Notes under the pieces: generated by a model
What the model was told of the DNA's origin: nothing
Database searches by the model: none
What the model saw: the letters and a program-made list of their open reading frames with translations, nothing else
Part shown: positions 44,082-48,134 of the stretch, piece after piece
Layout of the letters: each line of letters begins with the position of its first letter
How positions within the stretch are numbered: the first letter of the stretch is position 1
Translations under genes and position numbers: made by a program
Source of the DNA: Rhodobacteraceae bacterium HLUCCA08
Lineage (GTDB): Bacteria > Pseudomonadota > Alphaproteobacteria > Rhodobacterales > Rhodobacteraceae
Assembly: GCA_001314655.1 (NCBI GenBank)
Contig: LJSF01000043.1
Location: 248,001-312,000 of the forward strand
Direction: 5' to 3'
Length of the DNA stretch: 64,000 nucleotides

Positions 44082-45365
44082 TCAGTCGAAGGTGAAACTG
44101 ACACCGAAATTGATCGCGTGGGTGTCGACCTCGGTCTTTAAGCGACCGCCGCCGTCCAGGTCGGCGTCGATCCAGGCGTAGTTGCCCTTGTATTCGCCGA
44201 AGACCGCCCATTGATCATCGATCGCGTAGCGCAACCCGCCATGCCAGCCCAGCGCGGGGCCGGTGATCTGGTATCCCTCGGTCAAGGGCGCGCCCGGTTG
44301 CGTCCGGACCTCGACATGCGGAAAGCCGAAGCCGAAGCCGAACCCGGCATAGGGCGTCCACCGGCTTGCGTCCCGGGGGAAGCGCCAGCTTGGGCCCAGG
44401 GTGGCGACATTGAGCCCGTCGGTGAATTCGAGCTTGGCAAAGCCGCTGCCCGCCAGCGTCGCGTCATCGGCAAGGATCTTGGCATGGGTGAACTCGACCG
44501 ACCAGCCGACGCGCTCCGAGCGCCACGCGGTGGCCCGGACCCCGTAATAGGGCGGCGCGTCGAAACTGCGCCCCACCCAGCCCGCGTCGAAATCGAAGGC
44601 GCCCGCGCCGGCGGGATCGGTGCCGGTCACGTCGCTTTCGCCGGCGGTCTGGTAGCCGACATAGCCGCTGATCTCGATCTCGGCCTGACCGGAATGCGGC
44701 AGGATCAAGAGCCCCAGAACCAGTATGGTCGGAAGCGACGGTTGGCCGCGCGACGACCTGTTCGGACGGCGGCGCAGGCCGGCGACGAAGCGCCCCAGTC
44801 GTGTCCAGGCCCGGCGGCAGAAGCGCTCGAACCGCACCAGCGCCATCACCTGCAGCGCCCATCCCAGCGTTGCCCCGGCCAGCACCTGCCAGACATTGTG
44901 CTTGCCCGCATCGATGCGGCTGCCCCCGGTGAAGCCCGCCGCAAGCACGACCACGGCCTGGGCGGGTTTGCTTGATTTCAGGCAGGTCTGCATCAGGCCC
45001 GTTGCCCCGAATGTCGCCGCCGCCGTATGGCCCGAGGGAAAGCCCGCGGTGCCGCCATCGGGGCGCATGTTGATGGGGTGTTCGCCCAGCAGGAACTTGG
45101 GCGTCTTGATGCCGATTTCCAGCAGGATGTAGCGCCCGAAATAGGTCACCCCCTGCCCGGAGCCGATCGCACATCCAAGGCCCGCGACAGGCAGCGCCAC
45201 CTGCACCACATCTCCGATCCGCTCTGCATGGCGGCCCGTGACAAGGACGATGCAGAAAAGCGCGGCGATCACGAGCCCCGCCCTGGCCCGAGCGCAAAGG
45301 CCCAGCAGGGCGCGGTTGATGGTTCCGGGGTCGGGGATACAGCGAAGGATGTAGGGAACGTGCAT
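44082..45365 (-). CDS. PAP2-type phosphatase fused to an outer-membrane beta-barrel
   Basis: A 427-aa two-part protein. Residues about 1-200 are a membrane PAP2 domain (helices; PSGHTAAATFG near 109; SRIDAGKHNVW near 147). The catalytic pattern is imperfect: the Lys of KX6RP is misplaced and the Asp after His is Gln. Residues about 212-230 (ILVLGLLILPHSGQAEIE) look like an internal signal peptide with an AxA-like cleavage site. Residues 232-427 alternate as an 8-strand-like barrel ending in Phe-Thr-Phe-Asp, resembling small lipid-A modifying OMPs (LpxQ/PagL type). ATG 45365 or 11 codons upstream are both possible starts. Perhaps lipid A modification; inference. Confidence 0.7.
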   Translation of the reverse strand: MHVPYILRCIPDPGTINRALLGLCARARAGLVIAALFCIVLVTGRHAERIGDVVQVALPVAGLGCAIGSGQGVTYFGRYILLEIGIKTPKFLLGEHPINMRPDGGTAGFPSGHTAAATFGATGLMQTCLKSSKPAQAVVVLAAGFTGGSRIDAGKHNVWQVLAGATLGWALQVMALVRFERFCRRAWTRLGRFVAGLRRRPNRSSRGQPSLPTILVLGLLILPHSGQAEIEISGYVGYQTAGESDVTGTDPAGAGAFDFDAGWVGRSFDAPPYYGVRATAWRSERVGWSVEFTHAKILADDATLAGSGFAKLEFTDGLNVATLGPSWRFPRDASRWTPYAGFGFGFGFPHVEVRTQPGAPLTEGYQITGPALGWHGGLRYAIDDQWAVFGEYKGNYAWIDADLDGGGRLKTEVDTHAINFGVSFTFD

Positions 45366-45398: not shown

Positions 45399-45432
45399 CG
45401 TTGCGCAACGATAAGGTCACTGTTGCGCAACG
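45399..45432. promoter_or_regulatory. Tandem GTTGCGCAAC operators
   Basis: The palindrome GTTGCGCAAC occurs at 45400-45409 and 45422-45431, exactly 22 bp apart, inside a longer imperfect direct repeat GTCAC(C/T)GTTGCGCAACGAT. It lies just upstream of the PAP2-barrel gene. Two copies on the same helix face point to cooperative binding of a dimeric regulator, which I cannot name. The rest of the 251-bp gap to the EF-hand gene shows nothing else clear. Confidence 0.55.
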
Positions 45433-45616: not shown

Positions 45617-46834
45617 TCAGAGGGGCAAACGCATCTCGACCCGGCGCAACTGGTCGCGCAGGGCGAAGATGTCGCCGCCCATCAGCATGTAGAACCGCAC
45701 GGCGCTGTCGATGCGCACGGTGTCGCCCGCCTCGTAATAGGGCAGTGCCTGTTCGCCCTGGATCAGCGCGGTCAGGTCCAGAACCGCGGGCGGCTGTTGC
45801 AGCAGCCGGGCGATGTTCAGCCCGCCGCCGCCGGGCAGGCGCGGATGCGGCACCAGCACCTCGCCGCGCAGCATCGCCTCGGCCTCGGACAGGATGATCG
45901 GCCAGGACAGGCTGGAATGGGCGGGCACCGAGCGCGGCAGGGCGCTTTGCTGGTTGGCGTTGGGGATCCATTCGCGGTCATTGTCGGTTTCGGCGATGGC
46001 CAGGCGCCAGAACCGCTGCCCCTGAACCGTCATCTGCACGAAATGGTCCTGGGCAGTGGCCATGCGGCCGGCGTCGATCGGTCCTTCGAAGGCGCGGGCG
46101 ACGATGGCGGCGGTGTCGATCGACGGCGCCCAGGACCCGAGCCAACCCAGGTCGCCGCCGGCATTGAACGCGGCGAACCCTTCGGCGGTGGCCACACCGC
46201 GTTCGATCGCGTCCGAGGCATCGAGCGCCAGCCACATCTGCACGGCACCCGACACCAGGTGGCCATAGGCGGTCAGCCAGGCCGCATCGGCGGTGTCGAA
46301 CCGGATCCTGGGCGGTTTGAAGTCCGGGGCGCTGGCCTCGTAAAAGATCTGTTCGGCGACCTCGAAGACGCCTTCGCCAGCATCGCGGGTCCCGTCGGCG
46401 TCGATGTCGAACCACAGCGCGCCGGTATCGACCCGGACCGCGACCGCATCGGCATCCTCGATCGCCGACAGGGTGTCCAGGCTGTCGGCCAGCTTGGCCA
46501 GCACCGCGTCCAGCGCGGCATCGGTCCGGTCGGCGGCAAAGGGTCGCGCGTCGGGGTTCGGCGCCACGTCAAGCCGGATCAGCGGCAGCCGCGCCGCGCC
46601 GCCCAGCGGGACGTCGATCCGGGTGTCGTAGCGATGCTGGATCGCCAGTTCGACCGCGCGCAGGAATTGCACGGCGCCAAGCGCGAAGCGGTCGGACGGG
46701 GACGGATCGGGGGTGGCCGACAGGCTGTCCTCGGCGCCGGACAGGCCGGCACTGGCGATCAGATCCGAGATGTCGGTTTCGGCGGCCAGCGGCGTGGCGG
46801 CAAGGGCGGCGAGGGTGGCGAGGCGGGCAAGCAT
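45617..46834 (-). CDS. Secreted EF-hand-containing protein, paralogue 1
   Basis: A 405-aa protein with an N-terminal signal peptide (ATLAALAATPLAA). It is clearly paralogous to the next upstream gene: shared GAEDSL, FALG.V.FLRA.ELA, DTADAAWL.AY.HL.SG and ETDNDREWIPN. Near residue 140 a canonical 12-residue EF-hand loop is present, DIDADGTRDAGE, so calcium binding is likely. I do not recognise a named family. It starts 46 bp after the paralogue stop with AAGGGAGA before the ATG. Periplasmic or exported; function unknown. Confidence 0.75.
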   Translation of the reverse strand: MLARLATLAALAATPLAAETDISDLIASAGLSGAEDSLSATPDPSPSDRFALGAVQFLRAVELAIQHRYDTRIDVPLGGAARLPLIRLDVAPNPDARPFAADRTDAALDAVLAKLADSLDTLSAIEDADAVAVRVDTGALWFDIDADGTRDAGEGVFEVAEQIFYEASAPDFKPPRIRFDTADAAWLTAYGHLVSGAVQMWLALDASDAIERGVATAEGFAAFNAGGDLGWLGSWAPSIDTAAIVARAFEGPIDAGRMATAQDHFVQMTVQGQRFWRLAIAETDNDREWIPNANQQSALPRSVPAHSSLSWPIILSEAEAMLRGEVLVPHPRLPGGGGLNIARLLQQPPAVLDLTALIQGEQALPYYEAGDTVRIDSAVRFYMLMGGDIFALRDQLRRVEMRLPL

Positions 46835-46880: not shown

Positions 46881-48083
46881 TCAGTTTAGGATCACGGCGA
46901 ACAACAGCGCATCGCCGCCCAGCAGGTCTTCGAACTGGCGCAGGGACTGGCCGTCGATGCGGCGCCCGACCTGGGCATAGGGCAGGATGGTTTCGCCCTG
47001 GAAAAGGCCGATGATGTCGATCTCGGGCGGGTTCTGCATCAGCGCGGCCAGGTCGATGCCGGCATCGCCGCGCAGCCGCCAATGCGGGATCAGCTGTTCG
47101 CCGCGCAGCATCGCGTCGGCATCGGCCAGGACCTGGCGCCAGAGATCGCCGGTCTCGGGCGGAAAGGTGATCGGCAGGGCGCTGGTCTGGGACTTGTTCG
47201 GGATCCATTCGCGGTCATTGTCGGTCTCGGCGGCGACGCGCGACCAGAACACCTGGTTGTCCTCGATCACGTCGAGGAAATGGGCATGGGCGGCGCGGCT
47301 GCGGTCGGCATCGGGCTGGCCTTCGATCGCGTGGATGAAGATGGCGATCAGGTCGACCCACATCGCGTCGTCGCCGGTCACCCAGCCGCGCTGCTGCATC
47401 CCCTGGCCAAGCGTCTCCATCGCCGCGGCGCTGTCGAGCACCCGGGCGATGGCGGTGGTCGGATCGAGCGCGAGGATGGTTTCCGACATGCCCGACAGCA
47501 GGTGCGCATAGGCCGACAGCCAGGCGGCATCGGCGGTGTCGAAGCGCACCACCGGCGGGGTGAAGCCGCCGGCCAGCGCCCGGTTCAGATCGCCGCCGGC
47601 GACCTCGAACAGGCCCTCGCCGGCATCGCGGGTGCCGTTGGAATTGATGTCGAACCACAGCACGGCGGTGTCGATCACCACCGCGACCGCGTCATCGTCA
47701 CCGATCCGGTCGAGCGCTTCGCGGCTGGCCTCGAGCGTGACGAGGGCGTCTTCGAACAATTGCGCGACCATGGCCGGTTCGAACGGCTCCGCATCGGGGT
47801 TTTCGCCGATCGGAAGGCGCAGGAAGGGCAGGCCGCTTTGTTCGGCCATGCCGGTCATGTTGACCGCGTAGCGGGTCTGCAGCGCGAGTTCGGCCGCGCG
47901 CAGGAACCGCACGCCGCCCAGGGCGAAATCGTCCGAGGGCGTGGGGGCGGGCAGGGCGGCGAGGGAGTCCTCGGCCCCGGCGAGGCCTTCGGTCGCGATG
48001 AGCTGGTTGTAGTCGATCTGGTCGGCCCGCGCGGCGGCGACGCCGGCGATGGCCAGGATGGTGGCGGGAACGAGAAGGCGCAT
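46881..48083 (-). CDS. Secreted EF-hand-containing protein, paralogue 2
   Basis: A 400-aa protein with signal peptide (LLVPATILAIAGVAAARA) and the EF-hand loop DINSNGTRDAGE near residue 140. It is the first gene of the tandem pair and aligns with paralogue 1 over its whole length. ATG 48083 follows AAGGAGCC. The tandem TGAAC-type operators 26-51 bp upstream overlap the 3' end of the glycosyltransferase gene, so the pair is likely controlled separately from its upstream neighbours. Confidence 0.76.
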   Translation of the reverse strand: MRLLVPATILAIAGVAAARADQIDYNQLIATEGLAGAEDSLAALPAPTPSDDFALGGVRFLRAAELALQTRYAVNMTGMAEQSGLPFLRLPIGENPDAEPFEPAMVAQLFEDALVTLEASREALDRIGDDDAVAVVIDTAVLWFDINSNGTRDAGEGLFEVAGGDLNRALAGGFTPPVVRFDTADAAWLSAYAHLLSGMSETILALDPTTAIARVLDSAAAMETLGQGMQQRGWVTGDDAMWVDLIAIFIHAIEGQPDADRSRAAHAHFLDVIEDNQVFWSRVAAETDNDREWIPNKSQTSALPITFPPETGDLWRQVLADADAMLRGEQLIPHWRLRGDAGIDLAALMQNPPEIDIIGLFQGETILPYAQVGRRIDGQSLRQFEDLLGGDALLFAVILN

Positions 48084-48108
48084 GGGTGGCTCCTTGTGGC
48101 TACTTGAA

Positions 48109-48134
48109 TGAACATAGTTCATGAACAACGTTCA
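48109..48134. promoter_or_regulatory. Two abutting TGAAC-N3-GTTCA operators
   Basis: TGAACATAGTTCA (48109-48121) directly followed by TGAACAACGTTCA (48122-48134), two inverted repeats with TGAAC/GTTCA-type arms. This is typical of TetR-family operators in alphaproteobacteria. They precede the EF-hand protein operon and overlap the stop codon of the glycosyltransferase gene. No TetR gene lies in the window. Confidence 0.6.

Follow-up and report, generated by a model that had tools for sequence, protein, structure and literature searches.

The window, a 64,000-nucleotide stretch of contig LJSF01000043.1 from Rhodobacteraceae bacterium HLUCCA08, carries a gene in which a PAP2 phosphatase domain, a signal-peptide-like segment and an outer-membrane barrel of the 8-stranded type are confirmed to lie in a single frame. 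The fusion, its recurrence in other genomes and the homology of the barrel to the lipid A oxidase LpxQ are firm, and we consider the chances about even that the gene product is a polyprotein, split by signal peptidase into the enzymes for two consecutive reactions on lipid A, 1-dephosphorylation and oxidation. Lipid A 1-dephosphorylation and oxidation are carried out by separate enzymes in separate membranes, and they alter cell-surface charge.

The fused gene and its relatives

The gene runs from 45365 to 44082 on the minus strand of the window and encodes 427 aa from an ATG start; a GTG located 33 bases upstream of this ATG is an alternative start that would add 11 aa. Its parts, together with a pair of palindromes in front of it, are as follows.

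44082..45365, minus strand: fused gene (427 aa) for a PAP2 domain, a putative internal signal peptide and an LpxQ-like barrel, from Pfam and four fused relatives
44832..45233, minus strand: PAP2 phosphatase domain (residues 45-178) with a predicted LpxE-like fold, from PF01569 and the match to 6ebu over model residues 45-178
45060..45098, minus strand: motif 1, K90-x10-R101-P102, 4 residues longer than KX6RP, invariant in 23/23 rows of alignment A2
45027..45038, minus strand: motif 2, PSGH (110-113), with P, S and H constant in 23/23 A2 rows
44886..44921, minus strand: motif 3, S149-R150-x5-H156-x3-Q160, in which Gln replaces Asp, with R, H and Q constant in 23/23 A2 rows
44682..44765, minus strand: internal signal-peptide-like segment (residues 201-228), from its sequence, a comparison to the barrels encoded by separate genes, the missing start codon and a pLDDT of 51-59
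44085..44681, minus strand: LpxQ-like outer-membrane barrel (residues 229-427), from identity to LpxQ, PF13505 and the OmpA/NspA/OmpW fold
45400..45431, no strand assigned: two perfect 10-bp palindromes GTTGCGCAAC, spaced 22 bp from start to start and located 35-66 bases before the ATG

The earlier note had read in this frame a PAP2-like domain with PSGH (110-113) and SR-x5-H (149-156), followed by a signal-peptide-like segment and a barrel-like domain, and this reading holds in each part. Both motifs are present and PF01569 matches residues 89-175 (Pfam; E 1.4e-11, 44.7 bits against a curated cut-off of 27.2), while the segment falls at about residues 201-228, OMP_b-brl (PF13505) matches residues 271-426 (Pfam; E 5.6e-7, 30.3 bits against a curated cut-off of 28.7) and the modelled strands begin at residue 229. 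The window gene is the sole PF01569 match in the source genome. BacA and LpxK are both encoded there, indicating that lipid A is presumably made and that the window PAP2 is not the sole candidate for the essential C55-PP phosphatase. A search of PDB sequences with the fused protein as a single query gave no match up to E 10.

Upstream of the gene, the palindrome pair GTTGCGCAAC appears operator-like, and the spaced pair occurs only once in the genome. None of the four other fused genes has TTGCGCAA within 160 bases upstream, and a longer palindrome pattern, with 2 mismatches allowed, was no more frequent in the window than expected by chance (26 of 100 shuffles reached 4). Promoter and terminator scans returned no hits. 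Two similar-looking tandem genes, both with signal-like N-termini, lie directly upstream on the minus strand (45617-46834 and 46881-48128; 405 and up to 415 aa).

A scan of 84,980 species genomes with alignment A1 produced 345 pattern hits; 281 relatives were confirmed, and we retained the best 80. A single-protein scan of genome contigs yielded 15 pattern hits, none of them confirmed. Among these best 80 of 281 relatives, four are fused, one (L076) is an adjacent unfused pair, and 75 have a barrel with no match to the window PAP2 half in the locus, whose flanks were searched up to 6 kb. Each of the four fused genes is a single open frame:

L074: 434 aa, in MAG 4_bin.22, which bears the label Polyangia
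L075: 430 aa, in Rhodobacteraceae MAG Vin_29
L079: 439 aa, in Gemmobacter UBA12163
L082: 404 aa, in Gemmobacter lutimaris YJ-T1-11

The L074 contig is probably a misbinned Rhodobacteraceae contig, since the partial sucC found on it encodes a protein with 89% identity to the window counterpart over 166 residues.

The earlier note had allowed that the two halves might be separate genes in relatives, joined here by an artefact of sequencing, and assembly could likewise have merged two neighbouring genes. A search for split versions, as it proposed, did recover separate halves elsewhere, and in five sampled genomes they are neighbouring genes. However, four more fused genes stand in other records, and the window gene has no ATG, GTG or TTG over residues 178-219, whichever of the three coding-strand frames is read. 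One indel would therefore not be enough to recreate a stand-alone barrel gene with a usual start codon before its signal segment, and the barrel, barring a rare start codon, depends on the upstream start. Given the fused relatives, an artefact is very unlikely, and we give it next to no weight; the fusion stands.

When the window protein was compared with 295 genomes of its family, 123 matched at E up to 1e-3 and, except for the window's own, every match covering both halves contained a stop. Three other genomes of the same genus showed a barrel match in one case and none in two. Profiles of the two subfamilies, which include rows from some of the genomes matched, detected at E below 1e-30 the PAP2 subfamily in 23 and the barrel in 98 of the 295 genomes. 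Both families occur in seven: five carry them adjacent on the same strand with PAP2 first (G203, G009, G057, G271 and G217; the pair is 6 bases apart in G203 and overlaps by 4 in G271), one is the window's own fused case, and in G248 they lie on different contigs. Their presence is not associated, the barrel being found in 7/23 PAP2-subfamily genomes versus 98/295 overall (odds 0.87, p 1.0), and a PF01569 match is absent from 31 of the 98 barrel genomes. The barrel therefore does not need a PAP2-subfamily phosphatase, and perhaps needs no PAP2. Strong linkage and unassociated presence are both facts, and both stand. A generic PAP2 search of 83 loci (the 80 and three plasmid loci) added L073 and a weak match in L072 (E 0.011; Sinorhizobium B11), where two genes lie between PAP2 and barrel. 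L131 and L144 were discarded as PAP2 loci, being evident chance pattern hits.

The fused gene of the window and those of L074 and L075 adjoin a gene that we take, by eye, to be sucC. Elsewhere the PAP2 gene adjoins what are presumably cytochrome bc1 genes, also identified by eye (L033, L039, L043, L045, L048, L049, L057, L079 and L082), and this site occurs with PAP2 alone (L039, L043, L045, L048, L049), with a separate barrel added (L033, L057) or with the fused gene (L079, L082). A single fused clade, as a group defined by fusion and not read from the tree, was rejected on the PAP2 tree (25 rows, L052, L069 and L073 being omitted; p 0.0005). On the barrel tree (88 rows) it was not rejected (p 0.47), and the window barrel was closest to the separate L077. 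For long stand-alone rows, the final 230 residues (PAP2) or 240 residues (barrel) were used. Because of the PAP2 tree and the two different gene neighbourhoods we speak of at least two origins; the results can be explained by two or more fusions, or by a single one followed by splits and replacement.

The two halves and their relation to LpxE and LpxQ

An AlphaFold2 model was built from structure alignment A3, whose 59 rows are drawn from 57 of the 80 loci (overall mean pLDDT 86.7, pTM 0.57). It has helices at residues 16-43, 47-68, 72-93, 112-127, 133-152 and 158-198, with a short one at 211-220, poorly ordered linker blocks over 201-230 (pLDDT 51-59), and strands from 229 to 426, the blocks from 231 on reaching pLDDT 91-98. 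The earlier note had allowed for a model showing no barrel; one is modelled from residue 229, and it resembles the OmpA, NspA and OmpW folds (Z 15.6-17.6). PagL (2erv) matched the window barrel in shape at Z 12.6 with 8% identity, and Pfam matches up to E 1 did not include the PagL family. For the helical part, the top PAP2 fold match was Aquifex LpxE 6ebu (Z 14.5, rmsd 2.2, 126 residues, 23% identity), but PGP phosphatase 5jki (Z 14.0) and human G6PC1 9jtn (Z 13.6) came within 1 Z of it, and in helical bundles a Z under about 13 can reflect a common arrangement. The modelled match to LpxE is thus tied with other PAP2 folds and hence not specific.

PMC6581854 gives the standard motif as KX6RP / PSGH / SRX5HX3D. 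The window domain shows PF01569 and the K, RP, PS-H and R-x5-H elements of the PAP2/LPT superfamily, and departs from the exact KX6RP spacing and the final Asp. The earlier note had called the motif imperfect, and the Lys spacing and the Asp-to-Gln change are indeed real; they do not, however, reflect decay, since K90, R101, P102, P110, S111, H113, R150, H156 and Q160 are constant in 23/23 rows of A2, the window included, among them the catalytic K, R, H, R and H (A2 omits the divergent L036, L050 at a contig end, L052 and L069, which are broken or cut short, and L073). We conclude that K-x10-RP and H-x3-Q are subfamily traits, and a degenerate PAP2 was rejected. The accompanying suggestion of another role for one half loses weight, as the deviations are conserved and as the Asp is also missing from H. 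pylori LpxE (PMC6581854). The same paper notes that the His of PSGH is missing from Aquifex LpxE.

A profile search of the PDB with the PAP2 half gave 8 matches up to E 1, the best being Aquifex LpxE 6ebu (E 8.2e-6), followed by 5jki (E 4.7e-4). The curated model NF007159, which we take to be a Helicobacter-type LpxE model, scored 19.4 bits against a cut-off of 177, and the window protein was likewise below the threshold of the curated LpxF model. Compared with LpxE from Aquifex (6ebu), Rhizobium, Francisella and Helicobacter, the window PAP2 has the PAP2/LPT fold and motif set in common, whereas it differs in having K-x10-RP for KX6RP and H-x3-Q for H-x3-D and in falling below the curated LpxE cut-off. 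We know of no experimentally tested enzyme in the K-x10-RP subfamily.

On the PAP2 tree, the window domain groups with L074, L075 and the stand-alone L037, L038 and L040 (support 99/98). These three stand-alone genes adjoin an LpxF-like PAP2, in L038 within the same frame (NF045633, E 1.6e-22 to 3e-28, 80-99 bits against a cut-off of 400). In a scan of neighbour-gene families covering 10 proteins from four loci, L038 and the more distant L046 were also found to adjoin LAB_N (PF07578, E 5.4e-31 and 2.4e-30) and ArnT-like genes, with a GT2 gene next to L046 as well. The shared frame of L038 (2878-4320, 480 aa) joins an LpxF-like PAP2 domain to a PAP2 of the K-x10-RP subfamily, which looks as if 4'- and 1-phosphatases had been joined. 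PMC5644692 reports Mesorhizobium loti lpxE clustered with rgtE and rgtF, which encode lipid A GalA transferases; at the loci scanned here, the PAP2 subfamily, with lipid A genes as its neighbours, thus takes the cluster place of lpxE. The link to LpxE drawn in the earlier note therefore gains from the best PDB profile match and from the nearest stand-alone relatives, which stand beside lipid A modification genes, and judged from these comparisons an LpxE role of the PAP2 half is likely.

LpxQ is an outer-membrane enzyme forming a small barrel. It is named in PMC3557214 as the oxidase producing the 2-amino-2-deoxy-gluconate unit, and PCR primers that amplify an 850-bp lpxQ product from R. leguminosarum bv. 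trifolii are listed in PMC3123555. With up to 3 mismatches the reverse primer matched 5/297 genomes of the family to which a Rhizobium genome (G297, from L129) belongs. At L161-L163 both primers (2-4 mismatches) bracket 0.92-1.06 kb holding a 224-aa barrel protein, and the frames of at least 150 residues fully inside the bracket are this barrel and one antisense frame in L162 and L163. The window barrel is 43-46% identical over 200-224 residues (E 5e-45 to 1e-47) to these three proteins, whose LpxQ name rests on primer bracketing, a result that bears out the earlier link to LpxQ. All five fused barrels are 41-46% identical to them over 194-236 residues, and alignment A4, with the LpxQ rows and the window included, has 32 columns invariant over 28 rows. 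The window barrel is thus like rhizobial LpxQ by homology over the whole mature barrel, but unlike it forms the C-terminal part of a PAP2 fusion and has neither its own start codon nor an N-terminal signal peptide. Among the best 80 of 281 relatives the nearest barrel is that of L077 (61%), a separate gene in a locus without a PAP2 relative. At L072 (5914-9504, Sinorhizobium sp. B11), the neighbours of a rhizobial LpxQ-like barrel gene include those for a response regulator, a histidine kinase and a PAP2 protein, a setting that hints at regulated lipid A modification.

A true fusion might nevertheless serve other substrates: PAP2 might dephosphorylate PGP, undecaprenyl pyrophosphate or some other lipid, and the barrel might carry out non-LpxQ chemistry, with the two halves merely co-expressed. 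LpxE enzymes act on C55-PP and PGP as well, according to PMC6581854; PGP phosphatase 5jki ties with LpxE by fold, the curated LpxE models are not reached, and the two families co-occur no more than chance, with 31/98 barrel genomes lacking PF01569. However, it is exactly these two families that are repeatedly adjacent or fused, the nearest PAP2 relatives have lipid A gene neighbours, and the barrel is 43-46% identical to LpxQ. We accord other substrates a serious but clearly minority chance.

The joint between the halves

In the window protein the joint comprises an Arg-rich n-region, a short h-region (ILVLGLLIL) and G-Q-A before the proposed cut 228|229, which coincides with the start of modelled strand 1. 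All five fused genes encode a hydrophobic run, 15-21 residues long under a loose rule, which stops 2-5 residues short of the proposed cut. At the homologous, unshifted cut of the window, L074, L075, L079 and L082, position -1 is A, A, S, A and A and position -3 is G, A, A, L and T, respectively; of 78 separate barrels, 62 have A at -1 and 56 have A at -3. These statistics exclude L107, which has no anchor motif, and count L057 and L076, the same gene, once. A small -1 with an acceptable -3 is found in 5/5 fused genes, which are related to one another, versus 17% of positions by chance. Considering that a looser rule, with a shift of up to 2 residues, is passed by 57% of random positions, we relied on the unshifted check.

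For the 19-residue hydrophobicity maximum, four of the five fused joints were inside the 5-95% range of the separate barrels; that of L075 reached 2.52 versus a 95th percentile of 2.09, and from its sequence this joint could stay as a membrane anchor. The 10-residue maximum of the L079 joint was just above the range (3.14 versus 3.11). Net charge before the hydrophobic run is +5 in the window, L074 and L079, +2 in L082 and +1 in L075, and this positive charge fits a cytoplasmic n-region, weakly so in L075. The active site of such PAP2 enzymes faces the periplasm (PMC6581854), which together with the helix order would place the C-tail in the cytoplasm, the side where a signal peptide must start. 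Cleavage at the joint is probable in the light of these sequence features.

Two products could also be made without cleavage if translation started internally. In-frame ATGs are located 34-37 codons before the proposed cut in L075 and L079, and a GTG 35 codons before it in L074. By contrast, the window gene lacks ATG, GTG and TTG in any frame over residues 178-219, and L082 has no in-frame start between -52 and -10, which leaves an internal start a slim chance.

A proposed polyprotein and known systems

In the polyprotein reading, which we prefer and for which we infer cleavage, topology and both reactions, the N-terminal PAP2 domain would stay in the inner membrane, with a periplasmic active site and an Arg-rich cytoplasmic C-tail, and would remove the lipid A 1-phosphate in the manner of LpxE. 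The C-tail would act as the n-region of an internal signal peptide (about residues 201-228) routing the C-terminal part through Sec, and signal peptidase I would cut after Ala228. The freed chain would then insert into the outer membrane as an LpxQ-like barrel and oxidise the dephosphorylated glucosamine to 2-amino-2-deoxygluconate. Overall, the polyprotein interpretation put forward in the earlier note largely stands. If it is true, the ratio of the two enzymes would be fixed, and the gene would clearly exemplify how one precursor can give rise to a protein of the inner and another of the outer membrane. As a Rosetta stone, the fusion would name a probable substrate for the PAP2 subfamily, and it gives a lead on the barrel of Porphyromonas gingivalis LpxE. 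Our confidence falls a little short of even for the broader claim, namely that one polypeptide feeds consecutive enzymes of a lipid pathway to two membranes via signal peptidase, an arrangement that would have arisen two or more times in Rhodobacterales, alongside a comparable fusion in Bacteroidota, and would include a new class of lipid A 1-phosphatase (K-x10-RP, H-x3-Q).

Within the literature on LpxQ, 'lipid A oxidase' and LpxE fusions that was within reach, we found no report of an LpxE-LpxQ fusion, and the lipid A literature contained no study on these organisms among the matches listed. A PAP2-barrel chain as such is already published. According to PMC12704123, P. gingivalis LpxE (PG1773) consists of PAP2 (38-219) followed by a predicted 8-stranded barrel (220-423). 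Proteins of this type occur in 21 other species and, with one exception, carry an N-terminal Sec signal; the authors suggest an outer-membrane location, or an inner-membrane one.

The window protein could likewise remain uncut and work as one two-domain unit, as proposed for the P. gingivalis enzyme. The latter, a lipid A 1-phosphatase on the evidence of deletion mutants, has a matching domain order and barrel type (PMC12704123); PAP2 helices 3-5 of the window protein are low in hydrophobicity (19-residue maxima 0.55-0.97, scored without a control set), and the L075 joint is long and hydrophobic. However, the P. gingivalis barrel directly abuts PAP2 in that description, whereas each of the five fused genes encodes a signal-like joint that includes a cleavage motif, and PAP2 occurs without the barrel family in 16/23 subfamily genomes (E below 1e-30). 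An uncut protein is, in our judgement, distinctly unlikely.

Compared by published description, P. gingivalis LpxE and the window gene both encode PAP2 followed by a barrel of about 200 residues, the P. gingivalis enzyme catalysing lipid A 1-dephosphorylation. P. gingivalis LpxE has one N-terminal Sec signal, and its published boundaries leave no space for an internal one. The window case is unlike it in its LpxQ-homologous barrel, its signal-like joint and its split relatives.

With regard to the preferred polyprotein reading, a known counterpart is fbcH of Bradyrhizobium japonicum, which encodes a cytochrome b/c1 polyprotein whose two membrane proteins are separated at an internal signal peptide. 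Both fbcH and the window gene place two membrane proteins in one chain around such a segment, putative in the window protein, but fbcH differs in serving a respiratory complex and in that both of its products are inner-membrane proteins.
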